Below are positions 4,201-30,150 of a stretch of DNA of 64,000 nucleotides, piece after piece. A model generated the notes under the pieces. The model saw only the letters and a list, made by a program, of their open reading frames with translations. It searched no databases and was not told the origin of the DNA. The position numbers and the translations under genes were made by a program. Numbering within the stretch: position 1 is the first letter of the stretch; each line of letters starts with the position of its first letter. This DNA is from Blastomussa wellsi (lineage: Eukaryota; Cnidaria; Anthozoa; Scleractinia; Plerogyridae): positions 9,481,308-9,545,307 of the forward strand of contig OX393564.1 of NCBI GenBank assembly GCA_947652115.1, given 5' to 3'.

Positions 4201-4228
4201 GCGGAAGGATGTGATGCATGTGGAAGGT

Positions 4229-4434: not shown

Positions 4435-4752
4435 GTGGAAGGTAGCCCAGTACATGACGTCATTGGAAAGGCTAATGACAAACATGGCGGAAAACCTGGA
4501 TGTTGTTGCTGTGTGCAGCCAACTATATTTGACGGAATTTTGTACTTACGGAAGTGCGAGCTAAAATAACTTCGTAATTGATTATTTTTTCTTGCTTGAC
4601 CGTCACTGCAAATAAAATAGAATAGAGGCAATCGACAAGGAGACGCCTACAAGAGTGCTTGAAATCAGTTGAAATGAACACTGAAATGAATGAGAACGAA
4701 GTTTGCTGTCGGGATTTGCGTGCATGTTAATTGCAAGATTCTTTGATTCGCC
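4435..4752 (+). promoter_or_regulatory. Putative promoter and 5' leader of the Roco-type gene
   Basis: A perfect CRE palindrome TGACGTCA lies at 4455-4462, directly followed by ATTGG, an inverted CCAAT box. A 26-codon upstream reading frame runs 4484-4564, starting in a good context (AACATGGCGG). An in-frame TGA lies three codons before the ATG at 4753, so that ATG is the first start available to the long frame in this exon. No TATA box is clear. The regulatory role is inferred from motifs only. Confidence 0.4.
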
Positions 4753-5252
4753 ATGCAGATTTTCCTGAATTTATTAAACGCAAAGAAGATTGCGGTGGAG
4801 GTGAAGCCTTTGGATACCGTCGAAACCCTGAAGAAGACGATCTCGCAAGTGACTGGACTTCCACTGGCTGTACAATCGCTCCATTCGCAAAGTGGCGCAA
4901 AGATTGAAAATAACTGCCGCATTTATCTGGGGGACTTGATAAAGCCAAATACCTTTATCAATTTGGCTTATAAGCAGGATACGTCAACGACTTCCTTTTA
5001 TGTGAATGCTGTGACGGGAAGTGGAAAAGTTTTCACCGTGACTCCCGAAGGAGGGAATTTATCGAACGTCCATAGATTGAGAAGCAGCTTGTCAACACTG
5101 CTTGATCTGCCAGCAGAGGGCTTGTTTCTGCGGCTGGTTGACATGTCGCGGTTTGTGAATAAGGGTTTAGCGGCATTATTTAATAGTTTGGAGGAGTGTG
5201 GTATAAGCAATGGTTCTGTTTTGTACGTGCAAATTCATCCATGGAAAGAAGA
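4753..5252 (+). CDS. Roco-type gene exon 1: two tandem ubiquitin-like domains
   Basis: The exon starts MQIFLNLL, like ubiquitin itself (MQIF), and residues 1-75 show the beta-grasp pattern ([14 protein letters not shown], then [13 protein letters not shown]). Residues about 80-166 repeat the pattern ([45 protein letters not shown]). No C-terminal diglycine is present in either, so they are built-in interaction folds and not conjugated modifiers. The exon ends in a split Asp codon (GA|T, phase 2) that leads straight into the SH2 Trp. Confidence 0.8.
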
Positions 5253-8200
5253 GTAAGTTTAAAATATTCATTATAAAGTTCAGTGTGTCTGCATGGTACG
5301 TGACCTGCTGAATGCAAATTTATCGACAGGTGACTTTGTTCATGAGAAAAGTGATTTATTTTCTTTAGGTGGCCAAAGAGCCATGATGTATGGTGGTCCA
5401 TTGTTCTCACAGAAAAATTGGGCCAAATTCTTAAATATCCAAAGAAAAAGCGAAGAAATAACCATTTTTTTCTTTGAATAAAATTTGGATCATGTGTATT
5501 TTATGCACCCCTTCAACTGATATATCAGTGATACTAACCTAGGTTAAATTACGTCTGCGACGCAAGCTATAGTCACCAAAAGACAAGTAGCAGTGAAGTA
5601 TCGGCGGAATGTCGGTAACCTATCGATCAACATGTTGGCCGACAATCGGACAGCCACTCGGTTGACATATCGACTGATACATCGGTCGATACTCGACCGA
5701 TATGTCAGTCGATACGTCGACCGACACATCTCGGTTGATATATCGGTCGAGGGGTGCACAAATTTTATATCTGAAAAAATAAAAGGGATATATTACATAT
5801 GTTTTAAGGTGGCTCAATACCCAACATACAACTTTTGCTCAGAATCAAACTTAATCAGAAGAGACCACCATCATGCAATTTGTTGCCATGAATGATGACA
5901 AACACAATGAAATTTGGGTCTCTTGTTGCCATGGAAACGGTACAAGCTTTGGTAAAGTGCCCCAGAGGGTGCTTTTCTTATAACAATAATTGAGAAAAAA
6001 AACACCAATTCATTCAGAAAAGAAACTATTTTTTAAAAATCATGTTTACAGTGCTCTATGCAATGAACCAAAAATGGTTGGCTGGCATTCAATACTTGCA
6101 GAGAGAAAAATCTGAAAAGTTGCAAATTGCAAAAACAGGCCATTCTGGCAAATACCCAGCACCAGTGTTTTCCATGTTGTGGCAAAAGAATTTGCCAGAT
6201 AAGCATTATCTTGCTTCATTGCCCAGAGTGTTTATCAACCTTCAGTCTCAGCCCCAGAGGCCTGGAAAAGTTAAAAGCATGGAAAAATAGAAATGTTACC
6301 ATTTACCTCTTCCGTGCAAGTGTGAACATCAAAACTGCATAGGGTTGAGAAAAAAATTCCTAAGGCTAGGTTCTATCATTTCTATAAGAAATCGTGCTGC
6401 ATAATTATTTGTTTTGCATTGAAACAACAGAGGAAAATAGATGGTAGCACCATGCTTTTTCTAAGAATACATAGTTAGAGAATGGAGATTGCAGAAAAAC
6501 AGCATACCAGCTCCAAAACAATGCAAGGATTTCATGCAACTCTTACCTCACAAGCAAACAGTGTGAACACGTCTTTCAATGACTCAGTCATTTAATCACA
6601 GGGTAAGCATTACAAAACAACTCTTCTGCTTTCAACTCAAATACAAAGTTCGGCCAAAAAAGTCAAACACAAGCCCAAGTAGTTCCTTTTTAGAAAGCAA
6701 CCTCAACCAAGCAGCAACCAGCAGGAATCTGACCGCATTGCATCCTGGGAAATTTGACTTCTCCTTGAGCGGGAAAGACCTACCTACAACCAATGTAATT
6801 TTTTTTATACAGTCACCAGGCTTCAATAATATACTAAAAGTTTTCCAGCCACTTCCATCATTGATTGAAACTTCCATATTTGCCAGTTGAAGCCTGGTGA
6901 GACACAACTTCGTTCCCAGGGTCTCTCTCTTCCCGCCCCCGGGGGCGAGAGAGAAAGACCCTGGGACAGGCTGGTCACGTGTCTCTTGGACAATTGAGAA
7001 CTCTAGGGAGGGGTCCTCTAATGTCAGGAAATTTAGTGCGTTATTTCAAAGCGAGGGTTTCGCATGTGATCTAAAGGTTTAGCAAGTGATTGTCTTGAGT
7101 CAATTTATGTGGCTGGGATGTTATGTACAACCAACAGCATACTTCAAGTCAATCATATTTTGTCTTCTTCCTTTGCTGTTTAATACTCGACATAATTGAC
7201 TGTGATCGCCTCTGAACAGTGCCATATATGTGAATCCCGTCATTTTTCGATGCTCTAATCGTAGATCAGATCAGAAGGCCCAATGAATGAAATTTCAGTG
7301 CAACTATACTTATAAACGTGGAGAAAAAAGCGAATTTGAAACTCAATTTCCGGCAGCAAATATGCAAACCCCTCGCAGAAAGACATACAAAATAGAAATA
7401 TGACTATCTTCTTCGATAACCATTCACCAACGAGTGTCACTAGTTGTTTTGCCAATGGCCGGTTCACTATTAAATGTAGGAAACAAGGAACAGACTTTTT
7501 CCAAACAACAATATACGTCTAAACGGAATATTTACGCGACGCGATAGATAACAACTGAATGTAAAATGTCAGATGAGGTGCATAATTTTGTAAACAACAT
7601 ATCATGAAGACAAAAATTGTATAACGAGCAGAGTGGACGAACGAATACTGTGGCAATATAAACATATTTCCTTTCCTAACCTTCATTTTCTGTTGAACAT
7701 TGGACACCAAACACGTTGTTCATCGGCAGCGGCAGCAAAAGTCAGACAAGGAAGACTCTTCCTATTTCTGTCATCGCTCGCCGCGCTCTTCTGAGATGGT
7801 GAGATCTTTTCGACCTTTCGCTCCTTTCAAAGCAACATTGACTTCGGTGATCATGGCCCCGATTGCTTTGAAATTATTTGAATTGTCTTTCATGAGGTAG
7901 AAATGGTAGATGTGGCCATTGCGAGGTCAAGACCTTCTGCACAACCTTGATCGCGGTTTTCGCAATTCCTGATAAGCCTTCCTCCTTTCTGAAGAATTTT
8001 TTAAAATGTCCATCGAGGAAATATACGACCTAATCACGGATATCTGCTATCAGACAATGTATTAAATTTTTTGGCGTTTACAACAGATTACCAATGGAAA
8101 CAATTTTGCCGTACTGTGTTTCTTTTGGTGGCAACACTTTCCGCGCACCTGTAGTCTCAGTATATACAAAATTCATACTGAGCGGCCGCTCCCTCTAACG

Positions 8201-11200: not shown

Positions 11201-13153
11201 CTACTTCTTGTATCGTGGGTTACATTATTCAATGTTATATTCTACTTTTTACATTCTTGATTTAAAATTTTGGATTTTGTATTGTACCTTTCATTTTTGA
11301 CATTTAACATTATGCTTTCGGCACGCAACATTGGCAATTTCTTTTGCGTGAGATCAGAACAGGAACTACATGTATTTTACATTCAAGTTTTCATTTTCAA
11401 CAATGCAGAGCACACCTTTTATAATTATTCTCAACTCTTCCTCAGTCTTACCGTCTCTATTTGGATACAGCAATTTTTCAACATGCAACTTTTTGTATTC
11501 TGCTACATGCAACATCCAACTGTAATCCAGGAAAGGAAGATGTTGTGGGGGAACACTACCCTAGACCTCTACTGAAGAGTACAGAAATCCCTCTAGGGGA
11601 GTAAAGTGGGGAAAAATTACTCTACCCCTTGACAGTCAAGTCTCCATGGTCACATGAACAATCTCCTACCTGCCTCTGCACACTGAACAGCATGTTCTCT
11701 TGAAGGCAGCGGATCGACTGGTTGCTCTTGATGCATTCTAATTAATGTTGTTTCTGGTACCCCTTATTTCCACAGGTTTGCTTGTCCCAGTTAACAATCT
11801 TTGCTTTTGACAACAAAATTAATGTAATTGGAAATCATCTGATTTCTACATACTGCATTGTAACTGTTTCAGTGTTCTTTTTTGCTTATTTTTAACAGTT
11901 GGTTCCATGGAAAAATAACTCGCGATCAAGCTGAACAGCTCATGTCTACTGCTGCTGATGGACAATTCCTTATCAAAGAGAGTGTGAACTTTCCTGGTGA
12001 CTATGTTCTCTTTGTTTGGTAAGTTTGTCTGATTATTTTTATACTTGCTTACTATAATGATAATAATAATAATTTAATTGTAAACTTGTACTGCACATAT
12101 TCTATAAAATGATCAAATACACATTACAATAATTTATATACATGTCTAATTTTTAAAAAATATTGAAGATATGAATTAAAATACTACATTAAATAAAGTT
12201 CATTTAAATAAAAATTGACGCAAATAATAAAACTGCAACTAAAAGCAAGTTTTTGAGATAAAAATTAGCGATAAAAAGGCACGACATTTCGATCTCTCCG
12301 AGGTCATTTTCAAGTGAGTAAAAATTTTCTAAATTGTCATAAATATGTTTATGCTAATTTTCTAAATTAGCATAAATATGTTTTTTAACATATTTATGCT
12401 AATTTCAAAAATTTATAACCTCGGAGAGGTCGAAATGTTGTCTTTTTATCCCTAATTTTTATCTCAAAATCAATCTCTAAGAAATTACTTATTAAAAGCA
12501 AGTTATCAGAGTTAAAATTTGTCATGACCATTCTTGCTCAGCTTGATGGCACAAGAAGTCATTCCCCTTTCTTTTATTGTGCCCAAAATGAAGCTAACTC
12601 AGTCTGGGCCTTTGTGCTTGATCTCTCTGGCAGTTGGTAAATAAAAACAAGGACCTTGTGTTTTCTTTTTAAAGATAACGTATACAATTCACAAATGATG
12701 ACTGATTATTAGTAGGTTGATTTTAAATCTGTTTTATATAGTGATGAAGGTAAAAGCAAGCATTACAGAGTGTTTTGTAAAAGGAATATGATGTTTACTC
12801 TCAATGAGCGGGAGTTTTTTGACAGCATCAGTGAGATGGTGACGGTAATAGACAATCTTTTATTTATTCTTAAGATACTAGTGTTTGTACAAAGTAATGC
12901 ACAGAGCATGTAGTACAGTTATTCTCACACACTGAATGCCATTTGTCTGCTACACATGATACGAGATGCATTGTCATGCTATTCTTGGTTTGCACTGTCA
13001 CGCAATAGAAAATTAAATCGAAACCATTTGGTGGATGAAGTCAAGAAATTGCGATATTATAGAAGATAATTAACGAAGTCACCTCTCCAAGTATTAGGTC
13101 CGTATGTGATTCTAAACTTCAGGAATTCGTCGAAATGTTGCGCACAAATTTAT

Positions 13154-13186
<33 letters not shown>

Positions 13187-16100
13187 AACTTTGGTACACC
13201 AATATGGCAGCTGGGAAATGGTGCAAACAGCTGGAACTTACTTTGGTTATCTAAGCAACTGATTATCTGTACTGAACATACAAACATTTACATAAACCCT
13301 TTTCCTAATGCTTTTACTTCTCAAGTGGCTAAAAATCCAGAGATAATGATATATTTTTTGACAAATGCGATCATAAGTTTATGTCACGCACCGCCATAAT
13401 TCTGAAATTCAAAATGCGCTGGTTTCCAAATGAAGCATGCTGTTGAGCTGAAAAATTGTAAACAGATATAAAATTGGCACCACTTCTGCCTGACAATAAT
13501 AAAAACTTTGGTGGCTCTTTCATTTTGGATTTTAGATTTTCATGACGTCACATGCAAGCCAAGAATTGTAGCATCACTTTAAAAAGCTGTCAATGCATCA
13601 ATGCATAGACAGTTTTGTTGTCAAAGATGATAGTACTACCTTGAAACTTGACTTTTGTATGCTCTTACGAATGACGAAGATGGAAGTGGATTGAACCTTG
13701 AAAAAATTAGTTTGTTCAATTTGTTCAAGTTTCCAAGCTGTGCAATGAAAAAGTCACTAAAGAATATTATGGTTTGCATTCTTCATGCGAATTCTTCAGG
13801 AGCATTTTATGCATAATAACAGGCACAAGACAATGATTTTTGCAGAATTGAACTCAAAACCGCAAAATCCCCCGTGACAGTGCCCCTTTAAACAATGCAT
13901 GGATATGTTGTAGTTCAACTTTACCCTTGGCATAATTGGATGTTTATTCATCATTTTAAATTCATTAGATCATTTTATATTTCATAAGATCATTTATTGT
14001 CACACATGCGCAAGAACAGAGGAAAATACCCAAATGTACCAAGGGTAAAATTGAACCACAACATAATCATACAATTTATAGTGTTGTTCACTGTGAATTG
14101 TTGCAATATAGTTGACAAAGTCAATTGATCAATCAGTGAGTCAGTGAGTCAGTCAATTAACTGTCACTTGTTTCTTATTATGACTATCAGATTACAGGCA
14201 CCAGTGATTCTTTAGTATTCAATATTATGAGGGAAGAGGTTAATAAGTGGGTTCCAAGGTGACCCTGTGATAGCTTAGTATGCCATGATACAGAGGGAGT
14301 AGAAATACTGTAGGCTAAGCTAATGCCTGGTCAGGAGTTGAGCGTATACTTAACATGTACATGAGCTATTTTGTTTCTCATGGAGTTGTCTTGGTGTATT
14401 TTCTTTTTGTTTAATAGTTTTACCAGACCAACACTGGACATTTGCCAATCAGACTGACAGAACCTGTTAGTAGGTGTGAGTTTACTAACAGCAATGCTGA
14501 TGACTCCTCATCGCATACAGGAGAAGGTAATAATTAAAAGAATTCCAAAAATTCCATCACTACACAGTCCATGCACTAACATCAATGATTCAGGGCCAGC
14601 TGTCAATTCTACTGTTTTTTTTATGGGAATATAAATAAAAACAACTGATTACAGTGTGTTACCCAGTTTCCGGCCAAAAAAATATTGCATCAGGTATTTT
14701 CTCGGGGATTTGAATTTTCATCCGCCTAAACATTCTGCCATAAAAAACAAACATTTCAGCTACCAATTGATGGTTTTGGCAAGGTTTTGGATAAAAAACA
14801 ACTGAGGAATGGCAAGTTCTGTGTAGTTGAGTTATTGATAAGCGACTAATTTTGGTGCTTTCCATTCCACATCAAAGCTGCCGCACACAAACAGATAGAC
14901 TAGCTCGTTTCATAGAAAATATTTGAAAGAACTTTTTTAAGGGTAGCAGCAAACAAGACAGCTCGAGCAGGGCGTAGCATGATAAAGTACAATGAATTTG
15001 TATTTATTCACAGGGATGTAGCTAAGGGCTGGCTACCGCTAATTTCACCGGCTGAAAGAGAGCTTATCACCAGCTTAAAAGCCAGCTGAGCTTGTTTGTG
15101 AGCCGGCTTTGTAATTTCTTAGCTACATCCCTGTATTCGGAGCTGTTGATTAGAAGATTAAACAAGACTTACCTGTAGGTTGAAGTTTGATTTAAATTCT
15201 GTCACAGCATCACGAAGTGTAAAGGGATCACATGAGATTGCGCCATCCAATCCCAGGACGTGCATTGACTTCTGGGATTGGGTGGTGCAATCTCATGGGA
15301 TCCCTACACTGAGGATGATGGGATAGAATTTGATCTTGTAACCAGAAAATTATAATGCTAATGGGTCATTGAAGGCACACATAATTTGATTGTTCCATAA
15401 AATGGCAGTTGAGAAAGAACAACCGAATAACTTGTATTGAAACTTACTTTGTCTTATCCAAGGGGCTGACAAATCAGTTTAAATCAATGGGTTACAAAAA
15501 ATGTGTTTTATGTTGATGGCTGGAAACTGGAGTACATGTAGGTGGTCAGACTTAATTGCTTTGCGAAAAGTTGCATAATTTCTTTATTAATACTTGAGAA
15601 ATGTTGCCAACCTTTGTACATTTTAGAGGTAAGTAAATTAACTGTCTTTGATATAAATCTGAGAGAGTTTTGATGCATTTAAAAGAAGTTATAGCGATTG
15701 CAAACTAAAGTGGCTTGGAGAGTAAAGTGGAGATGTGGTAGCAACCTATAAAACTGATCATGCAAAGCAAAAAAGTTGATTTCCAAAGTACATGTTGTTC
15801 TGCTACCTATGTCATCTGGCATTGTTGCCCGGCTGACAACTTAGAGAAAAAATGAATGTGGATCCATGATGTTCCAACACAACTTGATCTCTAGCAGCAT
15901 ATCTATACACTGTAAAGGCCATATTGCAATAACATTATCAAGGTTTGCTTATAGAACATCAGTTTATTCATTAAATAACCTTTTGGTGTTTTGCTTTATT
16001 CACAGACAACACATTGCCAAGAGCTCGACTTCAAACAAGTGCATCTTCAGAAATCCAGCTTCGTGTGATAATGGGGCCAAAGACATTCTCTCTTCTCACA

Positions 16101-19100
16101 AGTCCTCTTAATCAAGTCCATACCCTCAAAGAGCAGATAGAGGAATTGAGTGGAGTGCCTGTAGATTGTCAGTTATTACAACTGGATGGCAAACCACTAG
16201 TCATGAATACTTTTCTTCTTGGTGACTATCATGTCATGGACAACACAACAATCTTTGTTCAAGTTCATCCCTGGAATGAAGAGTAAGTGTGATAATTGCA
16301 TTACAGCGTCACATGAATTGTACATGTTTTCTGTCAGACATTTTATGTCAAACTTATATGTAAGTTTGTTCATTTTTGTTATCAATTTAGAAAAATCTTG
16401 AGTATTTCTAAGATAAACAGCTTTTACTTTCAATATAATTTTGGTGTTTGAAATTACAGCACTCGTATAGTATTATTTTTTCTTAACTATTTTCAATTGG
16501 AATTAAATTCTAAATGAACAGCAGCATTCAGTAGTAACATAATGCATATCAACAAGGGGATTAAAATGATTCCTGTCTATGACAAAAGTTTAGAACTGAT
16601 AATCATACTTCTAGTGAGTGGAGCTACAAGTACTTTATCATCTCTTCCCTTCTTATTTGTTTGAATTTAAGCTGGATTGGTTTGTATAGCAGCACATTGT
16701 CAAACTTAATACGATGATGATGCACAATCTCTTTTTTTTATTCAGTTGGTACGTTGGTAAAATGTCAGCCGGTGATATCGAGTCTATAGTCAAGGAGCTC
16801 GGTGATGCTACAGATGGAATGTTCCTCGTCAGAGAGAGCATCACGTATCCAGGAGATTACGTTCTTTATGTCTGGTGAGTTAACATCATGGCATGTATCT
16901 TGAGAGGAAAAACTTTTAGGGGAAGTCTCAGATACCGGATTTCTCCCACTTGATTAATTTGAATTCTTACTTCACACGTAGCCTAACTGGCCCAATGTTC
17001 TAAAATATCCTGGAATCACCACTAAAGGACTCAAGTCAGCCTCCACCATTTTCAATGCCATAAAATTTATGAAAATTGCTTTGTGACGCGAAATCTTATT
17101 GCATCTGTTAAATTATCCTTAGCAGTTTCACGGCAAATTCTTTCGTTTAGACGCGCTCAGCATGAAATAGAAAACCGAAAAATTCAACAAACACAAAGGC
17201 GCAACTGACTAGGGTCCAACTGACTAGGGTCCTTGGATTCGCTCCGACGAAGGGCTAACGCTCGAAACGTCAGCTCTTGAATCTCTTTACGGTGGCCAAT
17301 TGACATTATCAACCCAGTTGATAAAACCAAATTATATCCTTTAAGCTGCTACTGCTACAGGTCTCGTGCAATTTTGAACACCTTTTGCTGATTGTATTGC
17401 TGTATCTACAGGTACAAAGGCAAGTCATATCACTATAGAGTGCTCAACAAGAAAAACTCTTTCTCTGTTGATAACAAGCAGCAATTTGGCAGCTTGTCTG
17501 ATTTGGTTGAGGTGAGCATTGAAGTTTATGGGGCAAGAAGTACATAATATTTATCTTAGGCAAAACCCAAACAGTGGCAAGAAAGGGATGTCAAGGTGAT
17601 CCAGGAAAAGTAAACTGATAATATAAGCTGGGAGAGAAAGATGGATGGAGTGTGTGAGAGAAGGACCCAAGCAGACGAGAGAGGGAGGGAAATGGTACAT
17701 ATAAAGTATTCATTAGAGTTTTTTACCTTGAGTATCATTATAGGAAATCGCACGACGTTGAGTACAATTCGTGATTAATAGGTACGAGTGATATTTTGAA
17801 AGTTCTCAAAATTGCGCGAGCCTTTAGGCGAGTGCAATTTGAGATTGCACGATTGTTATATAAGGCTCTTCAAGTAATAATTGACATTGATGTTAAACCT
17901 TAATATGTAGATATCTATAAGGAAACGGATCACTATTCGTTTAGACATAATGATAAGTTAACTCTTAACTATTGGTAATTCCCTGGTAAAAGAACCTGTC
18001 ATAGATTTCCGTTGAAACTTGGCACATGTTTGCAACAAGTCAAGAAAATTATAAAAATGTAATAAAAAGTGGGGGTCACCGTGCTCGTTTCCACGTGACA
18101 GTGCTGACGAATATGGCTATTTACGCTTCTCTGGCAATAGTCCATATTTTCCTTAAAGTCTGCAGCATCTCACAACGTTTGACTTGGCTATTGTGTATTC
18201 ACCAATGTACCAAAACAATGTCTTTGAACACATTTGTTTTTACTTTACGCTCCAAAATAGACTTATTTTTCATATGCCCTGTTCGGCCCTTTATAGCTGA
18301 ATCCATGCAATTTAATTCAATTTCCAGAAAACTGGCCATAGATTTCTGGCAATTTTTTTCTTATTGAAAGAAAACACTATAATCATTAAAATCATGAAAT
18401 AAAATATGGGGGTCACCGTACTCGTTATCACGTTAGAGCCGCAGAATGTGCGCACGACCTGCATTTTTCTGAATTTGGAGCGAAGACTGGGGCGAGTTTT
18501 CAAACTGTCATATGGTTTTAAGACTCTTGAAAGGTGGAAGACAGCATCGAAGAAAATATTTTTAAGAATTTTCATTGAAATACGGCAATTCGGACGTTAT
18601 ATGATAGAGTAGGAGCTTAAATGCCAATGTAGTGGTTCATTATAAGTTTAACAGCCATCCTCGGTAAGTCGAACTCAACAACTAACACTACCACTTTATA
18701 CGTTATACAAATTTTGAGACATCAAGACTCATCTTGGCCAGAAAACTTGCCTACCGACATTTTCATTAACGTTTACTCTTCAATCGACCCCATTTAATGA
18801 TCTTTCTGCAGAAACTCCTTTTTGGCCACCATTTTGTTATGCGCAGTGCAAAACTATTGAATTACCTTAAGACAAGATATGCAAGAACGAATGTCCTCAA
18901 GTATACTTACTTTCATAGAGTTGTGGGAACATGGAACTCCCTTCCATTCGTGAAGCAACTAGTGTAAATTCTTGTAAAAGCTTTAGTCAAAAAGTTTTTT
19001 ATGGATTAATATATTTTTTGTACGTTATTTACTATTACTATAATTCTGATTTGCATCATTTTTATTTTAGTACCATTTGTGATCTGCTTTAATATGGGGT

Positions 19101-22100
19101 CTTGTCTCTTTTGCATTTCATCCTTTGGCTTGTATGCCATAAATTTTAATAAATAAATAAATAAAATAACTTTAAAAACATCACAAGTACCTATCAATCA
19201 CGAATTGTACGAGAAGGTCATGCGATTTTTTGTTTATAGTACATTCAACAAAATTAAAAGAAAACAGACCGCATAATATCGCATAATATCGCTGAAGAAT
19301 TTTGTCGAGGTCTTCCGCCGAATATTCTCCAAGATTAGGGTTAAATTTGTGCTCTTCAGCCCAGCTGTTTCTAGTCTCCTTCGCAGCTGTTATTAGGGTC
19401 GTCACGCAATGCTCCTCCCCACTGACGGCTGCTGAAACCTGAACCACATTCCTTTCCCTTTGTTTAGACTTTGAGTGATAATTTCAAACTACACCAATCG
19501 CACGTTACTTATTATTATCGCTAAAACCAGTCACGTATCAGTAATAGTTTGTCAATGAAGCGCCAGTTTTCATGAATTTAATGGCTCCTTCGCGAGATCT
19601 CAGAGATTTCCTGTGGATATATAAACTCCGAGAAAAATAGTCAACAACAGCTCCAGGTACTTCAATTGTTCGTTGCCTTCTAAAGAATAACAAAATTTTT
19701 AAATTTGGGAAAAGTTCACTCGAAGTTCTCGCCATTGCTGAAATAATTCGATCTTCGCTGTCGTCTGTAGAGCTTGCGTCAAATGCTAGCGATATATATT
19801 GATAAAAATTCATCGAGCATCAGATTTTATGAAACAACTAAAGAAAGAAATTGAAGAGGTATTCAATACAAGAGAAAAACCCAGGACAAAGCGACTTCTA
19901 CAACCAGATAAGACGGATAAGAAAGACGACAAGGAATCTAAATCGCAACGAAATGTCACGAAAAGCGGAAACACTATTAGGAGTTTCATTTGTCCGTTTT
20001 CGAGGTCGATGTTTAGTCATGTCTTCAACAGAAGTATCAGAGGACTTTTATTTTCTAAAACTGTGTGAATTGAGCAGTTTTTAGAGCAATACGATTCACC
20101 AGAAGACAGCGTAAACAACCCCACTATAAACACGCACCAGACCAAATGCCAAATAAAACAGGAAATTGAACTTACCAACCATCATTCAATCTAATTAGTT
20201 TGTGGGAAAGCGCGGCTCATCATGAATGGGTCGCCAATAAAACTCGAGTTGTGATTGGACAATTTGTCTTGGCGTGACTGACTCAGGAATATGTGAGCCA
20301 ACTTGTGACTGGCTAATCCGCGGAAAGGAATGTGGTTCGGGTTTAAGCAGCCGTTAGTGGGGAGGAGCATTGCGTGACGACCCTAATAACGGCTACGAAG
20401 GAGACGAAGCTGTTCCATTCATTTATCCAGGTTTGTGTGCTTTTCTTTGTATTTTTGTTGGTTGCTGTTTCTTAAAGGTTTTGAAGCTCGTTCTCGTCAG
20501 AGAAAGCAAAATGACTGTCGGCCATTTTGTCTCACCATTTCAAATTTGCCTCGCTTGCCCTTGTTGCTATAGAAACAATACAAACTCTGCGGAGTACAAT
20601 TTGGGATTAATTGCACTGCTCTCGTCCAATCAGAATAAAGTAATCTTGTTGAGTGTACTATGACTATAAAAATACTCATTGCTATTTCCCTTCCAGTATT
20701 ACAAACACCAGCGTGGTTCTCTGAAAACACAACTGACTAAACCTGTGAAGTTTGACAAAGAACAGAGAGGTAAATACAGAAATAACATGTCATTAGCCAG
20801 CATAATCAGACTACATGGTATCCAATTAAATTTGGCGCTGTGTCTTGTGTTACTTCACAGACATCCTTCTTCCAAATGTCCACCTTACAATTACTTTGAA
20901 CTTCACTGCTACTTGAGCAGCTGTATTTACTTGTAAAAGCAATGATTAATTGAACAAACAAGCAAACAAATGACTTAATGCAAGTGTTCAGGAGTAGTTA
21001 TATTGTCAAACAAACGGCAGTCAGTATGTAATAAAGCTAGGAACTCACTCATTCAGTATTGTTCTTTACCCAGGTGTTATTCCACCAGCCATTTTGGCAA
21101 GAGGCAGCAAAGCCAAAGCAGCCTACAGACGAGCATTAGAGCATGGTAAAACATGCGACATCCGTGTGCGAGTTATGTTGATTGGACAGGACCATGCAGG
21201 CAAGACAAGTGTTAAGAGATCCCTCAAGGGTGACAAGTTCAACAAAGATGAAGCCAGCACAGCTGGAGTGCAGATGGATCCCCCATTGTTAAGGGTTGGA
21301 ATTCAGCCTTGGAAGCCAGTTTCCCAGTCTGATGAACCCACCACTGTGTTTGATCACAAGAGTGCTCAGCTGGTGGCCAGGCAGCTGTCAGGGGGTTCAG
21401 ATGAGCTGCAAGACGATTCGCCCACCAAATCCACTGCTTCTGGTCTGCTTGAGGAATGCCCTACAGGGAAGAAGTGTCAAACTAATGGAGTAGAAAGCTC
21501 TGGATCTTATGTCGATCTAGAAAAGCTTCATTCTCAAACCAGTGCTCAATCCAATGGGATAAGATACTCTCAAGACTCCCCACCGTCCCAACGCAAGGAA
21601 GGTAAATATCACATTTATTTAAAATGAAGAATCAAACCTTTAGAGTACGGAATGACCAGGTAAAGAGGCATCCTGGTATTATAATAAGTTGCACGTTACT
21701 CGGTACACGTATGTGTAACTGTAAGTCCCACAGAGCCTCTCCTTAGATTTTATGAAATTACTTTTAACTTGTTTGCCACCTACATTAATTTCTCCTTGTC
21801 TCTAGCAATGGATGAAAGAAGTCTTTTAATAGCGCCTTCTTCACCACTTCTTCAAGACGAAGTTTTCACCAGTGAGTCTGAGTCTTTTGGTAATCTGCCA
21901 CAGGAGATCATCAGCCTAGTAGAAGGTATCCTCTTACAAGACCACCAATCCAGTGTCGTTGATGAAATATGGCCAGTGATCTGGGACTTTGCAGGCCAAT
22001 CGCTCTATCATGCCATTCATCCTATCTTCATGTCGTGGGAGGCTGTGTATTTACTCATATCTGACCTGAGCAAAGACCTGTTCCAGAGAGCAGAGACTCC

Positions 22101-25100
22101 TATGAAACAGTCTCACCAACCCGCCGAGATGTCAAACAGGGGCGAATCAAGTCTTGATCATCTGATGAGATGGATGGATTTGGTTCATTCATTTAAGGAT
22201 CCCAGCAGTGTGGAAGCCTCCGGCATTTCTCAACCTCCCGTCATCTTAGTTGGAACTCATGCCGACAAAGTAGCCGGAGATCCATGGGACATCATGAATG
22301 TCATCTTGAACAGCTTTGAAGGAAAGGCATTTTCATCTCATATTGTTGAAGAGAAGTTTGTTGTTGACAACACTCGAGCTGGCCAGCCATTTCAACATGA
22401 GGATCTAAATGTTCAAAGGCTGAGGAAGAAAATTCTTTCTGTGGCATCAACATTACCTCACACAAAGCGGGAAATTCCCCTGCAGTGGCTTCGAGTTGAG
22501 AAAGTACTCCATCGCTTAGCCAGTAGTGGATTGAAGCACATCACTAAAACAGAATTTAAGGCGATTGCTAACAAAATTTGTCAGTTTGAAGTAGAAGAAG
22601 ACAGTGAAGAGCTGTTGCATTTCTTGTGCGATTGTGGTGCAGTTCTTTATTTCCAGGAGTCCAGTCATTCTAACAGTGTGGTCATCCTGGACCCACAGTG
22701 GTTAATCAACGTATTTTGTCAAATCATAGCAGTTGTACCCCACAAGAAAGAACCTATGCGAATCCGTGAACATCGCCGAATTCTTGCTAAAGATGGCATG
22801 GTGTCAGAAGAGCTTATTAACTATGCTTGTCAAAGCCTTAGCCTTGAGCTTTCGCAAGACTCACTCATTTCCATCATGGAAAAATCTAACTTGATTTGCC
22901 GCTGGGTTGTCCAAAGTGGCAAAGTCGTCTATCTTGTTCCATCAATGTTGACAGCTAAGCCAGATGAGGAAATATCTGGATTAATTGGTCAGGGATCGGT
23001 TGGAGCAATTTACATCAAATTCCACACTGGATATGTCCCTTATGGCTTGTTTTCAAGATTTCTTGTGTTGTTTGGTCAGTACGCATCTCACGAGCTTTCT
23101 GCCAGACCTCCCAAGCTTTTCGCAAATGCAGCCAGGTTTTTCATTGGCAAGAAAGACAACTACAATTTAACATTTGCGTGCTTCAAGAGCGTGATTACGA
23201 TTCATTTGGTTCATGAAGGCAAGTCAGAGGATGGAACAGAGACTGTCGCCATATGTGAGCAAGTTTGCAGGTATATTTTACAGTAGTATGTATACAAGTA
23301 GCGATAAAAATAAAACTTCACGGTTGTTAGCAGAGCCCAAAAGTAGTAGTAGTAGTAACAGTCAGACTCCAATTGTGATTTTGTCCATTGGCCTCCTCAC
23401 CCTCATGCAATGTTGACAATTAACATTCATCTGCCACCCGAGTCTATTTTACCGTTTTCCAACATTGAAAGGAGGAACAAGGGTACATTTACCTTATTAG
23501 TTGTTTTGTTGTTTAGTATCACTGAGACTTTTTGTGCCGTATTTTGACGAGCCCGTAGGCCGAGTCAAAATGCAAAAAAAAAGTAAAATTTTTCAGCGAT
23601 ACTACACAAAAAAGTCTAATAAGAGATTTTTATGTATGTGCGGGCAAATTTCTAACGGGTTATCTGGAGTACAAACACCGTGTGATATTTGTACTCGTTT
23701 TGGGCGTTATTTGTACTCTATGAAGCACAGCTGGATAAAATTGAAACTGATTTTTATTCCTCCCACCAATGTGGCCCGGGTTCGATTTCCGGACCTGGCC
23801 TCATATGTGGGTTAAGTTTGCTGTTTGGTTCTTGTCCTTGCTCCGAGAGATTTTCGCCGAGTACTCTGGTTTTCCAAATTTCTAAATTCCAATTCGATCT
23901 GGAATGCACGGTCACGCAACCTCGTTCCCAGGGTCTCTCATCTTCTCGCCCTCCCTGAGCGAGAGAGGAGGGCGGGAAGATGAGAGACCCTGGGAACGAG
24001 GTTGACGCTCACGTTTAAATGAGCTCCAGCTCATTCATAAAATGGTACCGTGGGTAAACAAATTACATTTACAACGTTTTGTCATCATAATTTCATGTTT
24101 TTACCAGTTTCCCAACAAGCTATGTCCATGGTTGTGGATCAAATGTTATAAAAGTTGTCCTAGGTGACCATTCGTCTCTGTTTTGATGTGATATAAATTC
24201 TTTTCAGCAAAATTTCTTCTCTTCGTCATCTTTATGTTGAAAACATTAAGCAAACATTTTAGTAAGATGGATCCGCCTTCGTAAAGTGCACGTTTTACTG
24301 GGCTACCAAAACATGCACTCCCCCGCAGGGAGCAGAGGAGTTATGCTTGAAACATCAATAAAAGAAACGTCTTACCTTCGTTCTTGTATTTATTCTCTTA
24401 GTTAAAACCTCATTTGCGAACCAAACATACGTATTCATATGCGATCGATCGTTTCGAACCGCCATCATTCTGAATAGTGTACTTCCGCCACTAGTATGTT
24501 GCGGTGCACATCGTGCGAAAAGCCAACTGTCAACACGAAATGAGCGATCGCCAAAGGCCTGTTTCATGAATCCTTTCATCGTAATGGTTTAGGTAGCTTA
24601 AAGATGACGTAAATGCTATGCCTAATCCAAAAACTGGGGCTCGTTTGTTGAATATGTAGCGAGTTATTGGGGGACGAAAATTCGACCGAAATCTGTTTCA
24701 TCCCTTGTCTCTATTCTTACTGCTGTGGCGTCTTTGGCGCCCACAGTTCGTCCAACTGAATGCTGCTCCCTGTGCTCTCCCCATAATTTGTTACCCTCCA
24801 AAAGTGCCAAGTGGCGACAAAGGTTCCTGAGGTTGAAAAATCGAAATTCGCTTAATAACTCGATCTATAAAATGCCAAACTAGAATTTAAAAAAGTAAAT
24901 GGAAATCAGAAAGTAACAACCTTATTATTACACAAGGTTGATTAAGTAATTTTTCGCTTGTTGCTGTTTTGTTCTTTGTGGAAACTTTTCTGTCCTAGTG
25001 TCACTAACATCTTTTACAGCAGTTTTTGAAACGTGGTATTTTCTGTTGAAATGGGTAGAAATATTATTGAATGTTATTTTGATTTCATTCCCGTCCTCTG

Positions 25101-28077
25101 AAAGTCTTACGTGTATGTATTGTCTTCCAGGAGGCCGGCCTATCAAATAAAAAAGCTGATACAGTTAGTAAGGGCTTTTTTGTCTTATCATCGTTGACTA
25201 TTGTGTCCTTCAGATTTGTTGAAGACATCCTAGCCTTTCTTGGTACGCATTGTCCGTGGTTACACTCCATGTCTTGGCAGCTGTGTGCTCGGTGTGATCT
25301 GTGTGTTGGCGAGGATGAAGATCCTGAAGGCTGTTCATGGCATCATGTCCACTCCTGTATTCATCCCGACTGTGCACACTTCATTCCGTTAGCCTTACAG
25401 CCATTGAGGTGTGAAAAGACCTACAAGCTTAACTCCATGCTTGTTGTGGACAAGCTTCAACCCTGGATGAAGGTACGTCAAAATTTGGCCTCCCACGCAG
25501 ACGTCCTTTGGGCTTCGTCACGCGTTCCTTCCCCACGGATGTCTGCTGAATCGAACGTCCACTTCCGTTCACAGGCCTTTTAATCCAATTAAAGAAAACA
25601 ATCAGTATTGACTCATTGCATGACAGCTACCCTATCACATGCTGCGAATCGTTTTCTCAAAACTGGAAAGTTACCTCTCATTGGTTCGTAGCCGTGAGCT
25701 AGTTTTTGAGTTATTAGCAGTTAAAGCTAAAATTAAGGTTGTTTTAAGCAGATCATGTTGTTTCTATGGTAACCTTTTATGTCACGAAAATGATAATGAC
25801 GTGTTCACCAATGATTGGGCAGTTTTTTGATTCCATGATTGTAGCATCAACTGATAAAGAGTGGTTATAATGACCCATCAAATTCTAAGTCTTTGAAAGT
25901 GCTGGAAACTGTTTTGAGCCACCTTATCAATTGAAGCCCAAAACCGCTTTCAGCTCTTGCTAGATTAAATAACCTTTCAATAACTTCTACTTAAAAGTCA
26001 AAACCTGGGTTAAAATTGTCTGACGTTACCTTGCAATCGAGGAAAATACAAAAAAACTTGAAGCTTTCTTTTTCTCTATTTAAGCTGTCTTCATTCTGAA
26101 CAAATGGAAGACTCACTGAATCTAATAATTTGTTCACACCAAACCAGATGTCCATTTGTTACACAAAACTGTGCGCCGTATTTACCCGAAGTTAAAATAA
26201 ATTCCATTGTAGTTTTATTTGGAGAAATCTAGTCAATTAAGCTTCGTTAGCAATAATGTTGTCACACGAGTTGATATGACGTTCTCCTCTTGTCTCGTTT
26301 TGTCCTTGGAAGGAAATTCGCTGTTCTGGCGTCGTCTTTCGTCTTAATAGTTCTGAAAAAGTATTTGTTGGTCTATTAACGGTTCACTAATAAATTTTTA
26401 AAATTTGTTTTCTCTTCCTTCCGCAGCATTTCCACTACAGAAATCAGGACACAGGTAAGTTGGCAAATGCAAGTTGAAGAAATATTTATTTGGGAATAAA
26501 ACGAATGAAAGCGTTAAAATGCAGGATTTGCTTTAGTCCACTGGTTTGGTTATACTAAAAGGTATTAGTATATTCTCAGCTCCGACTATTGCATTTCTAG
26601 CTTTTTGATTGGCTAAAAAACTCCGACTATGAGCCAATAGTCGGAGTTTTACGTCATATGGAAAGTCGGGAGTCGGGGCGCGTGTGACCGGAAGTTGTAT
26701 GCTCTTCCCGGACGCTTTCTAAAATTGTGGAAATAAAAATCGGCGGCAAAACCCGGTTTGAGAATTTACTAAAACAATTATTCCATTCGCCCTTGTTGGA
26801 TATGAAGTGATTATAACCAACTCGCGCTACGCGCTCGTTGGTTATTTTATCACTTCATATCCAACGCGGGCTCATGGAATAATTGTTATATAGTTGGCAC
26901 AAAGTAAGCAGTAAAGGAAAGATCGCTTCGAAAGAGTTTGGTTTGTGCAATTTTTCAAATTCGTTATTTTCTATCCGTCTCAATCTTCTCCATCCTTAAA
27001 AATTCTTGTTCCATTTTGGTTTAGTGCCACCTCTTTAGGGTTTTTCTATCTTAGTAAACTATTATTTGGAGATTACCTTCATTTTTAGGTGAATTTGTTA
27101 ATTGTTTTTGTGCTGTTTTTCTTTTCTTGTAAATCTGGCAAAATAAAATGATTGATTGTTGTTTAATTTGGCTCGTCGCCAAAATTACTCGTTTGGAGCG
27201 ATGATCCGATTCCTTGAAGAATATTTGTGCATTCTGAAATACACCTTTTTCGCTTGGGCGGTTTGTTGCCCCATTACAGACCATTACAGTGATGACACTC
27301 TTGAGAATTCTTGCTTTCAAATTTTCAAACATTTGCGTGCATATGAATAAATAATGTTGGCATGGATAAAAGAACAATTCCCTAGAGAATGTCACATGGT
27401 CTGTAATGGGGCAACAAACACGCCCAAGCGAAAAAGGTCTATTACAAAGTGGGTCAACTATGCTGCAAGAAATAAATTCAGAACTATAGCTGTGATATAA
27501 TATCTCGGCTACATGAAAATAAATCGCTTACACCGTTTCCAATCATTAGACGTTTAAACTTGCCGTTGCATGTACCACTACTTTGAATCAAAACTCCTAC
27601 GAATAGTTGGCGATAGATTAATGACCTTGTATGGAAAGCGTTTGTTAATCAGACCCTTCGAGGCGTTTATACAATCAAACCTTTCCGTATGAGGTCGTAA
27701 AAAATTTTGATTGACGGAAGCCTATCGCCAACTTGTCGCAGAAGTTTAATCAGTTTTCTTTTTTCGCAGACCTGCTTCAGTTTAAGCCTGGTCGTGTGTC
27801 ACGTGATGATCTGCTACTCATAGCACGTGACGTTGGCAAACAGTGGGATGTGTTAGGTCGCATTCTACTGGACGAGAAGGAACTGGAACACATTGATTAC
27901 GACCAGAAGACGTTGTATGACAAGTGTTTCGTCATGCTGACTCGGTGGACAGGAGCTCAGGGATCCAAAGCCACATACGCTGCATTAGGAAAGGCGCTAA
28001 TGCAACATTTCCACACAGAAGATCTTTGTTCAAAGTATTGCTTAGAATCACAAGGCGTGCTGGAAAGTAGTGTCTAA
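4753..28077 (+). CDS. Ubl-Ubl-SH2-Ubl-SH2-Roc-COR-Death protein (Roco-type), 13 exons
   Basis: Exons by GT-AG sites and phase: 4753-5252, 11899-12018, 12742-12844, 14418-14526, 16006-16282, 16746-16874, 17412-17511, 20697-20769, 21074-21601, 21806-23270, 25214-25472, 26427-26454, 27770-28077. They join without a stop into 1332 codons plus TAA. Order by residue: two ubiquitin folds (1-166), SH2 (168-260), third ubiquitin fold (293-369), SH2 (371-465), Roc GTPase (about 500-865), COR (about 868-1115), Cys/His-rich segment (1159-1201), Death domain (1235-1325). Roc motifs are GQDHAGKTS (508-516), DFAGQ (707-711) and THAD (797-800). Roc-COR-Death resembles the tail of DAPK1, but there is no kinase and no leucine-rich repeat here. 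Role inferred: a cytosolic GTPase scaffold coupling tyrosine phosphorylation to a death-fold output. No transcript evidence is available; small extra exons could be missed in the long introns. Confidence 0.88.
5590..5757. repeat. Degenerate palindromic satellite, motif near TATCGGTCGA
   Basis: Within intron 1 the motifs TATCGGTCGA, TCGACCGATA and close variants repeat about every 10-14 bases on both strands. CpG dinucleotides are dense, unlike the AT-rich surroundings. The pattern keeps several frames open on both strands, which explains the short spurious frames here. Confidence 0.7.
5808..8743. mobile_element. TTAA-flanked DNA element, 2.9 kb, TIR GGTGGCTCAATACCC
   Basis: The left end reads TTAA-GGTGGCTCAATACCC (TTAA at 5804-5807). 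The right end reads GGGTATTGAGCCACC-TTAA (TTAA at 8744-8747), so both inverted termini and the duplicated TTAA are intact. No transposase frame is seen. A second TTAA element with a related terminus (GGTGGCTTACTAC) lies at 42007-42768. TTAA targets are typical of piggyBac, but the GGTGG ends are not the classical CCC start, so the superfamily is left open. A smaller inverted-repeat element (6911-8306) is nested inside. Confidence 0.7.
6911..8306. mobile_element. Nested element with GTTCCCAGGGTCTCTCTC arms
   Basis: The left arm (about 6911-6990, from GTTCCCAGGGTCTCTCTC to GGTCACGTGTCTC) and right arm (about 8220-8306) are inverted copies of each other. Each arm is itself nearly palindromic around a GGGGGCG/CGCCCCC centre. 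The same arm sequence forms a stand-alone palindrome at 23917-24004. The interior of roughly 1.2 kb shows no recognisable coding sequence. It lies wholly inside the 5808-8743 element, so it inserted later or arose there. Confidence 0.6.
8952..9587. mobile_element. MITE-like element with AAATGCTGTGAG ends
   Basis: The left end AAATGCTGTGAGGAGACCGGTC and right end GGCCGGTTGTTCTCACAGCATTT form imperfect inverted termini. Inside, 8986-9160 is filled with direct and inverted copies of GGTAGTCCATTTT-like words and TAGTCCATGG at both borders, probably a second palindromic unit nested inside. There is no coding content. Confidence 0.5.
9677..10638. mobile_element. Non-autonomous Tc1/mariner (pogo-like) DNA transposon, copy 2
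   Basis: Colinear with the copy at 770-1731 over nearly its whole length, with scattered substitutions and small indels. The left terminus is slightly degraded (AGTATGTTACGC); the right reads GGGCAACATACTG-TA. It lies in intron 1 of the Roco-type gene and has no transposase frame. Confidence 0.72.
10639..11898. other. Intron 1 remainder, no gene seen
   Basis: T-rich sequence between the pogo-like copy and exon 2. The short frames here (10601-11575) are low complexity, rich in Phe, Leu and Tyr codons, with no domain signal. The branch and acceptor region before exon 2 reads TTTTTAACAG. Confidence 0.6.
11899..14526 (+). CDS. Roco-type gene exons 2-4: first SH2 domain
   Basis: Exons 11899-12018, 12742-12844 and 14418-14526 give [47 protein letters not shown], and [17 protein letters not shown]. 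The pattern is close to the CSK-type SH2 (WFHGKI..., FLVRES, HYR). The invariant phosphotyrosine-binding Arg of FLVRES is Lys here (K193), while the HYR motif is kept. Phosphotyrosine binding may therefore be weak or lost. Exon phases are 2, 0 and 1 at the three ends. Confidence 0.85.
12249..12475. repeat. Inverted repeat of a Penelope-like terminal segment
   Basis: The left arm reads GAGATAAAAATTAGCGATAAA...GACATTTCGATCTCTCCGAGGTCA; the right arm is its inverted copy (ACCTCGGAGAGGTCGAAATGTTG...TTTTTATCTCAAAA). The arms enclose ATTTATGCTAATTT palindromes. The CCTC...GAGGTCGAAATGT block looks like a stem II-GAAA segment of retroelement ribozymes, but the CUGANGA box is not clean. It lies in intron 2 of the Roco-type gene. 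Confidence 0.5.
13904..14065. mobile_element. Palindromic MITE, TATGTTGTGGTT family, copy 1
   Basis: The ends TATGTTGTAGTTCAACTTTACCC and the inverted GGGTAAAATTGAACCACAACATA bracket an AT-rich middle, about 162 bases in all. Two more members lie in ABCF3 introns (35429-35589, 36791-36953). Confidence 0.65.
14237..14335 (+). mobile_element. Truncated SINE tail
   Basis: Sequence from 'GGTGACCCTGTGATAG' to 'AGTAGAAATACTG' matches the 3' half of the fuller SINE copies at 39664-39926 and 44046-44334. No tRNA-like head is present here. Confidence 0.55.
15011..15133. mobile_element. MITE with perfect 16-bp TIR
   Basis: Perfect inverted termini CAGGGATGTAGCTAAG and CTTAGCTACATCCCTG enclose about 90 bases rich in AGCC/GGCT words. 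It lies in intron 4 of the Roco-type gene. The CAGGG start suggests a hAT-like origin, but a target duplication is not clear. Confidence 0.7.
15215..15310. repeat. Near-perfect hairpin repeat
   Basis: The left arm AGTGTAAAGGGATCACATGAG...CCAATCCCAG and right arm CTGGGATTGG...CTCATGGGATCCCTACACT fold on themselves with a short loop. Probably a MITE fragment. Confidence 0.55.
16006..16282 (+). CDS. Roco-type gene exon 5: third ubiquitin-like domain
   Basis: After a short linker, residues 293-369 read [44 protein letters not shown] and [13 protein letters not shown], a clear ubiquitin-like pattern with the LxxLDGKxL turn. The closing HPWNEE followed by a split Asp codon (GA|T) mirrors the HPWKEE end of exon 1. 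No diglycine is present. Confidence 0.85.
16746..20769 (+). CDS. Roco-type gene exons 6-8: second SH2 domain
   Basis: Exons 16746-16874, 17412-17511 and 20697-20769 give [58 protein letters not shown] and [17 protein letters not shown]. The FLVRES Arg is present (R399), so this SH2 should bind phosphotyrosine. Exon boundaries fall at the same domain positions and in the same phases (2, 0, 1) as in the first SH2. Confidence 0.87.
17231..17335 (+). mobile_element. Penelope-type terminal segment with hammerhead-like motif
   Basis: Contains CCGACGAAGGGCTAACGCTC GAAACGTC followed by TCTCTTTACGGTGGCCAATT and AACCCAGTTGATAAAACC. The same block recurs at 54505-54609 (plus) and 30151-30257 (minus). 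It resembles a hammerhead core, but this copy has CCGA where CUGA is needed. Confidence 0.5.
18026..18640. repeat. Degenerate tandem duplication, unit about 345 bp
   Basis: 'AATAAAAAGTGGGGGTCACCGTGCTCGTT' at about 18061 and 'AATAAAATATGGGGGTCACCGTACTCGTT' at about 18401 start two diverged units spaced about 345 bases apart. No gene is supported. Confidence 0.35.
18845..19170 (+). mobile_element. LINE 3' fragment (CR1/L2-like)
   Basis: A plus-strand frame reads [20 protein letters not shown], the R-x2-W-NSLP motif found at the C-terminal end of many LINE reverse transcriptase ORFs. It is followed by an AAATAAATAAAT tail. The frame is then broken. This is a dead 3' fragment in intron 7 of the Roco-type gene. 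Confidence 0.55.
19366..20411. mobile_element. Inverted-repeat element in intron 7
   Basis: The left arm (about 19366-19455: TCTAGTCTCCTTCGCAGCTG, then GGGTCGTCACGCAATGCTCC) and right arm (about 20329-20411) are inverted copies over about 80 bases. The interior has short frames on both strands but no recognisable transposase. Confidence 0.6.
21074..23270 (+). CDS. Roco-type gene exons 9-10: Roc GTPase and COR
   Basis: Exon 9 (21074-21601) carries [20 protein letters not shown], a canonical P-loop, then a long Ser/Gln-rich low-complexity stretch. Exon 10 (21806-23270) carries [28 protein letters not shown], and the COR segment with [17 protein letters not shown] and [13 protein letters not shown], typical of Roco proteins. 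About 190 residues separate the P-loop from DFAGQ, far more than in a standard Ras-like fold, and an intron falls inside that insertion. The G5 region is not obvious. Confidence 0.88.
23335..23357. repeat. (AGT)n microsatellite
   Basis: Short run of AGT repeats just inside intron 10 of the Roco-type gene. Confidence 0.7.
23917..24004. repeat. 88-bp near-perfect palindrome
   Basis: CAACCTCGTTCCCAGGGTCT... and ...AGACCCTGGGAACGAGGTTG are inverted with a small centre. Same arm family as the ends of the 6911-8306 element. RNA from either strand would form one long hairpin. Confidence 0.75.
24005..25213. other. Intron 10 remainder, no gene seen
   Basis: AT-rich sequence with short unconvincing frames on both strands. 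Nothing beyond the acceptor CCTTCAG before exon 11 is recognised. Confidence 0.5.
25214..26454 (+). CDS. Roco-type gene exons 11-12: Cys/His-rich segment
   Basis: Exon 11 (25214-25472) reads [35 protein letters not shown] and LRCEKTY. Cys 1159, 1162, 1165, 1175, 1183, 1188 and 1201, with several His, could ligate zinc. I do not recognise a named zinc-finger family. Exon 12 (26427-26454) is a 28-base microexon (HFHYRNQDT) flanked by CCGCAG and GTAAGT; including it keeps the frame into the Death domain exon. Confidence 0.75.
26774..26889. repeat. Palindromic repeat in intron 12
   Basis: AACAATTATTCCAT...GGATATGAAGTGATTATAACC and its inverted copy flank the centre CTCGCGCTACGCGCTCG. A separate smaller hairpin built on CTCCGACTAT/ATAGTCGGAG lies just upstream at 26579-26651. 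Confidence 0.65.
27243..27438. mobile_element. MITE with ACCTTTTTCGCTTGGGCG ends
   Basis: Inverted termini ACCTTTTTCGCTTGGGCG and CGCCCAAGCGAAAAAGGT, followed inwards by GTTTGTTGCCCCATTACAGACC and its complement. AT-rich centre. Lies in intron 12 of the Roco-type gene. Confidence 0.7.
27770..28077 (+). CDS. Roco-type gene exon 13: Death domain and stop
   Basis: The terminal exon encodes about 102 residues: [56 protein letters not shown] and [18 protein letters not shown]. The six-helix Death pattern is clear: L-x2-IARD-x-GK-x-W at the start, L-x-W in helix 5 and ALGKAL in helix 6. TAA lies at 28075-28077. A Death domain at the end of a Roc-COR protein parallels DAPK1 and could recruit death-fold adaptors. 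Confidence 0.88.
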
Positions 28078-30141: not shown

Positions 30142-30150
30142 GTATAACAA
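28935..30150. other. Intergenic, no gene seen
   Basis: No domain, tRNA or TIR pair was recognised in this stretch. Confidence 0.45.

Follow-up and report, generated by a model that had tools for sequence, protein, structure and literature searches.

A predicted Roco gene with a ubiquitin-like/SH2 front end and a C-terminal Death domain in the coral Blastomussa wellsi

Does a chain of exons in the genome of the coral Blastomussa wellsi, running from ubiquitin-like (Ubl) and SH2 modules through a Roc GTPase to a Death domain, form a single gene, and what might its product do? We analysed a window of 64,000 nt (positions 9,481,308–9,545,307 of contig C5, OX393564.1; genome of 367.8 Mb in 124 contigs), for which a first-pass annotation had proposed a Roco protein of apparently unreported architecture and a candidate role in immunity or cell death. 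Our best explanation, with a probability of about 0.57, is one animal Roco gene with a Ubl-SH2 input and a Death output that acts in death-fold signalling.

Exon chain and domain content

The overall observation of the first reading, an exon chain and its domain content, was confirmed. Thirteen exons on the forward strand (4753–28077) again joined in frame, giving 3999 nt and 1332 residues with the sole stop at the end and GT-AG borders at every intron (Table 1). An in-frame TGA (4744–4746) lies upstream of the ATG at 4753, with two codons between them. Relative to all GT or AG sites at 100–31000, scored with a simple consensus, the chosen donors and acceptors fell in the 88th–100th percentile; the sites were picked by eye, so this ranking is a check rather than proof. 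Both splice sites of exon 12 were at the top of the ranking, and this exon and the second half of exon 4 are without homology support. Between the stop codon and about 30200 (2.1 kb scanned) no AATAAA was found, the only related signal being ATTAAA at 28885. We read the gene structure as being of animal type. The domains follow in the order Ubl, weak Ubl-like stretch, SH2, Ubl, SH2, Roc, COR, Cys/His-rich stretch and Death.

Table 1 Exons of the predicted Roco gene, and loci elsewhere in the genome where Death or GT4 follows COR
Feature	Position	Strand	Evidence or remark
Exon 1: Ubl1 (aa 1–78) and divergent Ubl2 (aa 80–166)	4753..5252	+	Ubiquitin 31.5 bits for Ubl1 (segment alone; Pfam cut-off 25.4); Ubl2 weak
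Exon 2: SH2a, first part (FLIKES)	11899..12018	+	Pfam; genome SH2 match C5:9493207
Exon 3: SH2a, second part	12742..12844	+	Spliced frame; cassette alignment
Exon 4: SH2a end and linker	14418..14526	+	Alignment column and phase of start as in exon 8
Exon 5: Ubl3	16006..16282	+	Ubiquitin 43.3 bits (segment alone; Pfam cut-off 25.4)
Exon 6: SH2b, first part (FLVRES)	16746..16874	+	Pfam; genome SH2 search; solved-structure match
Exon 7: SH2b, second part	17412..17511	+	Spliced frame; cassette alignment
Exon 8: SH2b end; donor phase 1	20697..20769	+	Spliced frame; cassette alignment
Exon 9: pre-Roc linker (IPPAILARG) and Roc P-loop; acceptor phase 1	21074..21601	+	3dpu alignment; phase comparison
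Exon 10: remaining Roc (DFAGQ, THAD) and COR	21806..23270	+	Pfam; 3dpu match; paralogue alignment
Exon 11: Cys/His-rich stretch	25214..25472	+	CxxC pattern in 4/7 fetched paralogues; tblastn matches in 5/7; no Pfam match
Exon 12: 28-nt micro-exon	26427..26454	+	Keeps frame between exons 11 and 13
Exon 13: Death domain and stop	27770..28077	+	Death 24.7 bits (exon alone; Pfam cut-off 22.6)
Death after COR	C2, at 9.0 kb	same strand	Profile search
Death after COR	C23, at 2.5 and 8.5 kb	same strand	Profile search
Death after COR	C20 (5591710), at 5.4 kb	same strand	Profile search
Roc-COR then GT4	C19:15590579-15596295	same strand	Profile search
Roc-COR then GT4	C22:9827808-9835686	same strand	Profile search; COR below cut-off
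Roc-COR then GT4	C20:7606792-7610178	same strand	One 1147-residue open frame holds both

Several repeats lie in and around these exons. Most of intron 1 consists of transposon-like insertions, with 97-nt inverted arms (5390–10875; 5.3 kb apart, 89%) enclosing a second inverted pair (6893–6985/8228–8320). A foldback or MITE-like element occupies 19374–20405 in intron 7; its 84-nt inverted arms are 94% complementary, with 864 nt between them. Direct repeat pieces, 85–93% identical, occur upstream of the gene (753–1640) and in intron 1 (9658–10626), and the 102-nt arms of an inverted pair, 12.8 kb apart and 98% complementary, lie in intron 6 (17236–17337) and in the downstream flank (30150–30251). 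Elsewhere in the window were a reverse-strand open frame at 3781–4227 with a weak GIY-YIG match (21.1 bits, cut-off 22.6), perhaps a retroelement remnant; another at 59165–59650 that weakly matches Piezo TM1-24 (E 0.0046; 15.9 bits, cut-off 28.8) and may be the margin of a further gene or a chance match; and a tandem repeat of short period, open in several frames, at 37035–37588.

By its core, the predicted protein is a Roco. Pfam Roc matched in two stretches (4e-12; 46.8 bits, cut-off 27) and Pfam Ras matched over the P-loop part (1.1e-4); the P-loop, WDFAGQ and GTHAD motifs were all intact, as the first-pass annotation had it. COR-A was equally clear (8.7e-18; 65 bits, cut-off 35.3). Roc-COR matched the solved Chlorobium tepidum Roco, 3dpu (1.9e-13), and the pre-Roc linker also aligned with the C. 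tepidum Roco (PPAILARG against PPEIVKQG). COR-B, the C-terminal half of COR, is its dimerising part. Its profile (PF25497) was not listed by Pfam for the window protein at E ≤ 1, a correction to the proposed COR block, although it was found at C23 and the region aligned with paralogues.

The Death domain scored 19.4 bits in the whole-chain Pfam search, under the cut-off, and passed it when the exon was cut out alone (2.6e-5, Table 1). It also matched the solved structures of RIPK1 (1e-3) and TRADD (7e-3), which bears out the Death assignment, and a capacity for homotypic assembly is predicted. Single-sequence folding was poor for exon 13 (pLDDT 43), as it was for exon 1 (pLDDT 36). Pfam returned no kinase, ankyrin or leucine-rich repeat (LRR) match in the window protein, and it is the flanks of the predicted chain that set it apart from DAPK1, LRRK and MFHAS1.

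Ahead of the core, the spliced protein matched Pfam SH2 in two stretches (9.1e-40) and ubiquitin in two stretches (3.4e-17). Ubl1 and Ubl3 each exceeded the ubiquitin cut-off when scored alone (Table 1). Ubl2 alone gave no Pfam match at E ≤ 1, and in a shuffle test its score was reached by 8/2000 shuffles against Ubl3, 189/2000 against Ubl1 and 702/2000 against human ubiquitin, a weak likeness to the first, hardly any to the second and none to the third. It is taken as a divergent Ubl because it heads a duplicated unit (see below), so that of the three ubiquitin folds originally described two stand firmly and one weakly. Neither the Ubl1 nor the Ubl3 fold ends in Gly-Gly, and they are therefore not released modifiers; a cleavable ubiquitin precursor was ruled out on the same ground.

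The description of the SH2 domains as CSK-like is a fair one, since the best single-stretch solved matches were CSK for SH2a (79.5 bits, among the best 60 of 291 matches) and CHK/MATK for SH2b (65.5 bits, among the best 60 of 273). Among the matches listed, the closest solved relatives come from kinase pathways (CSK, CHK, PLC-gamma, SHP2). The Arg of the FLVRES motif in an SH2 pocket normally holds the phosphate. SH2b keeps it (FLVRES), whereas SH2a has Lys in its place (FLIKES). Phosphotyrosine binding by SH2a would thus be weak or absent, and the phosphotyrosine reading that had been placed at the front of the protein is expected of SH2b only.

Roc-COR relatives in the same genome and a proposed working

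Profile searches of the genome, which count single exons and give lower bounds for large families, returned 44 matches for SH2, 17 for COR-A (13 of them above the cut-off), 48 for Death, 30 for ubiquitin and 18 for the GT4-conflict model. Only one of the 17 COR matches, that of the window, had an SH2 or ubiquitin match within 40 kb. By chance, ~0.012 same-strand SH2 matches would fall in the 12 kb to one side of the 17 COR matches combined; the window locus has 2. An SH2/Ubl front end as a general trait of the subfamily was rejected at this count. Outside the window the profile search placed no SH2 match within 40 kb of a ubiquitin match, and so revealed no separate locus from which the cassette could derive.

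The window Ubl and SH2 parts had no tblastn match at E ≤ 0.05 in any of the seven fetched Roc-COR loci. Pfam scans of the 7.7–9.7 kb upstream of loci C19, C20a, C20b and C2a, with C2b, C16 and C12 left out, found no SH2 or Ubl; upstream of Roc they gave a reverse transcriptase at C20b, a sub-cut-off DUF5893 at C20a and no N-terminal module at these two or at C19. A multicopy or retrocopied locus was likewise rejected, as the 38 genome matches listed (35 of the 69 first-look candidates scored) included no further copy of high identity to the N-terminal exons.

What the other loci carry is varied. Death lies downstream of COR, on the same strand and within 9 kb, at 3/16 other COR matches (Table 1); the window's own Death exon was missing from the 48 genome Death matches and was found by protein search instead. 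At C23:8691245-8696535, LRRs, Roc, COR-A, COR-B and a CxxC pair share one open frame, followed by a Death exon 42% identical to that of the window. The Roc-COR of this locus is distant, falling outside the 38 genome matches listed and on a long branch in the tree. At C2, TPR precedes Roc and a Bcl-2 match lies further upstream; the Bcl-2 match, TPR, Roc-COR and a Death match 9 kb on occupy one strand of C2:33789900-33803600, as one gene or as neighbours.

GT4 adjoins 3/17 COR matches (Table 1). Of these 17, four score under the family cut-off, including that on C22 (GT4) and C20:5591710 (Death). The locus on C19 is the nearest paralogue of the window (47–48% identity, among the matches listed) and its sister in a nine-row tree (support 84/86, below the tool's star level); its GT4 scored 277.7 bits with the conflict model against 67.1 with the general GT1 model. 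The GT4-conflict model also matched 14/14 control prokaryote genomes over the cut-off and is therefore not specific to conflict systems. On a further contig, C4:1449011-1477699 holds four GT4-conflict matches with Death matches nearby (1432575, 1474675), a possible Death/GT4 gene cluster. The Roc-COR paralogues of this one genome thus carry swapped effector modules, namely GT4, Death and TPR.

A pattern scan with the seven-sequence alignment yielded a single relative among 379 matched stretches of prokaryote genomes (a Bacteroidia MAG, 21% identity) and 0/29 among viral contigs. Within the limited sensitivity of its two short peptide patterns, this gave no sign of recent transfer.

In the predicted chain, a duplicated Ubl-SH2 cassette and one more Ubl replace the repeats usual before Roc, and Death is C-terminal. 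In a cycle linked to GTP and GDP, Roco proteins alternate between monomeric and dimeric forms, according to the portions of PMC6337361 available. By analogy with these domain families, SH2b would dock on a tyrosine-phosphorylated receptor or adaptor, while SH2a and the non-cleavable Ubl folds would position or regulate the chain. Clustering could then move the Roc-COR GTPase from one of its two states, monomer and dimer, to the other. The change in Roc-COR might expose the Death domain and let it seed a death-fold assembly of the RIPK1/TRADD type, with cell death or NF-kB-like signalling as the outcome. Taken together, these steps are a tentative proposal, and one or more may well prove different.

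The same architecture could instead serve a scaffold that has no part in apoptosis, such as one in tyrosine-kinase signalling during development, with Death as a plain interaction module and the GTPase as a slow timer. Such a role would suit the kinase-pathway origin of the closest solved SH2 relatives listed and a front end that differs from the repeat modules expected of pathogen sensors, and the 14/14 control matches make the GT4 evidence for a conflict role unspecific. We consider it rather unlikely, however, as sibling Roc-COR loci carry GT4 for which the conflict model is the best, on C19 by a wide difference in bits, and the genome has several Roco loci with Death. The suggestion of an immune or cell-death role has accordingly gained somewhat from the GT4, LRR plus Death, and TPR modules of related Roc-COR loci, within the limit set by the unspecific GT4 model. 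Death-fold signalling is the preferred output of the predicted Roco protein.

One gene or two neighbours

The genomic anatomy of the locus, taken alone, makes it very probable that exons 1–13 are one gene, as first proposed. Over 159 positions Ubl2-SH2a matches Ubl3-SH2b with 36% identity (E 1e-36), and the junction VQ(I/V)HPW(K/N)EDW occurs in both. In a MAFFT alignment of both cassettes, the three internal exon starts fell on identical columns (89, 132 and 167) with phases 2, 2 and 0. Identical intron columns and phases in both copies indicate that an ancestral Ubl-SH2 cassette was duplicated together with its introns, which ties exons 1–8 to one another; with the copies only 36% identical, this duplication is old.

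The alternative of two neighbouring genes concerns the step from exon 8 to exon 9. It would make a Ubl-SH2 adaptor of exons 1–8 and a Roc-COR-Death gene of exons 9–13, with a first exon unseen in intron 7 or 8. Both of these introns contain AATAAA signals, intron 7 is 3.2 kb long, and the lack of an N-terminal module upstream of Roc at C19, C20a and C20b suggests that Roc-COR may do without one. Nevertheless, we judge two genes to be improbable. Phase 1 is found at both ends of the second cassette (exons 5–8) and again at the start of the Roc exon, and just 304 bp lie between exons 8 and 9. Exon 4, to which exon 8 corresponds, is moreover an internal exon.

The acceptor of the Roc exon is shared beyond the window. 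A phase-1 AG lies 11–23 nt before the conserved I.ARG in 8/8 loci (the window and seven paralogues), at exactly 11 nt in six of them and at 17 nt in the window and C19; an AG in another phase also occurs within 45 nt of I.ARG at 4/8 loci. Because this phase-1 AG is found in all eight, the Roc exon looks internal across the whole family. The first Met in the frame of the Roc exon comes three residues ahead of the P-loop, and that of the Death exon at residue 56 of 102, within the domain, so that neither is a normal first coding exon. A short Ubl-SH2 isoform that ends before Roc is possible, given the AATAAA signals in introns 7 and 8.

Least probable of all, and very much so, is a decaying gene or an assembly chimera: introns 1 and 7 do contain inverted repeats of transposon type and SH2a has lost its Arg, but none of the 13 exons interrupts the reading frame, the GTPase motifs are intact, the splice sites rank at percentiles 88–100, the locus lies inside contig C5, which reaches at least 28.9 Mb, and the low identity of the cassette copies bespeaks an old duplication.

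Comparison with known Roco and Death-domain systems

Among known animal proteins, the DAPK1 type (kinase-ankyrin-Roc-COR-Death) resembles the single predicted Roco gene in that Roc-COR is followed by a C-terminal Death domain, as described in the accessible parts of PMC6320773 and PMC6337361. It differs in its kinase and ankyrin repeats, both lacking in the window protein, which has the SH2/Ubl front and a Cys/His-rich stretch before Death. Proteins of the LRR-Roc-COR (MFHAS1/MASL1) type and the C23 locus share Roc-COR with the window, and C23 also shares the CxxC stretch and Death; N-terminal LRRs stand in them where the window has Ubl and SH2. The LRRK and MFHAS1 families carry LRRs before Roc, with a kinase as well in LRRK, and the window protein is without either. 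The Roc-COR-GT4 loci on C19, C20 and C22 belong to the same Roc-COR subfamily as the window; they have GT4 after Roc-COR in place of Death, and no SH2 or ubiquitin match within 40 kb.

If expressed as modelled, the gene would let a single polypeptide read tyrosine phosphate, switch through a GTPase and signal through a death fold, and would offer a route, open to testing, by which tyrosine kinases could reach cell death through one chain. These three functions are usually spread over separate proteins.

Elements of this architecture have been described before. For Trichoplax, the accessible part of Civiero et al. 2014 (PMC4104024) reports a ROCO set whose members include proteins carrying death, CARD and TPR domains; that text mentions neither 'SH2' nor 'ubiquitin'. 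The available sections of two other papers describe the shuffling of LRR exons in Roco genes of brown algae (PMC11378527) and Roc-COR joined to TIR proteins in Aplysia (PMC9334734). Death-superfamily domains occur with varied partners, including SH2 and polyubiquitin, in the TRADD-N/Death-like immune proteins of marine invertebrates (PMC8195603, in part), where SH2 and polyubiquitin belong to different clades and no Roc-COR is named. 'SH2' does not occur in the accessible text of the Roco papers PMC4104024, PMC11378527, PMC6320773 and PMC6337361. We found no published SH2-Roco protein in a literature searched without most subscription journals, and protein-database entries may well show the architecture.

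The claim that the architecture was unreported, animal Rocos usually having LRRs, ankyrins or kinases, therefore needs narrowing. As judged from the portions of these sources available, death, CARD and TPR Rocos (PMC4104024) and SH2 or polyubiquitin TRADD-N/Death-like proteins (PMC8195603) were already described, so that only the joining of SH2/Ubl to Roc-COR is unusual. With that restriction the predicted architecture is real and unusual, a Roco-family core with a front end unmatched in the literature searched.

The closest parallel to the genomic setting is bacterial. In the AP-GTPase (Roc-COR) conflict systems of Kaur et al. 2021 (PMC8195603, in the part available), a constant Roc-COR switch is combined with interchangeable effectors that include GT4, as here; those systems are prokaryotic, have N-terminal LRRs and, in the same part of that source, are without an SH2/Ubl front on Roc-COR. 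The Roc-COR set of this coral genome resembles them, with a putative defence role, and the Roc-COR-GT4 loci are a possible animal counterpart of the bacterial AP-GTPase-GT4 systems. The phase-1 junction common to the Roc-COR loci is a likely place of module exchange. A further-reaching and doubtful reading is that the animal keeps bacterial-style, mix-and-match Roc-COR receptors, in which the input would be swapped via the phase-1 junction and the output would be Death or GT4; in the window, a phosphotyrosine reader might then gate GTPase-controlled death-fold assembly within one chain. The interest of the locus lies in its SH2/Ubl input and in this setting of exchangeable Roc-COR modules, which points to an animal parallel of the AP-GTPase conflict systems, with one Roc-COR switch serving different sensors and effectors.
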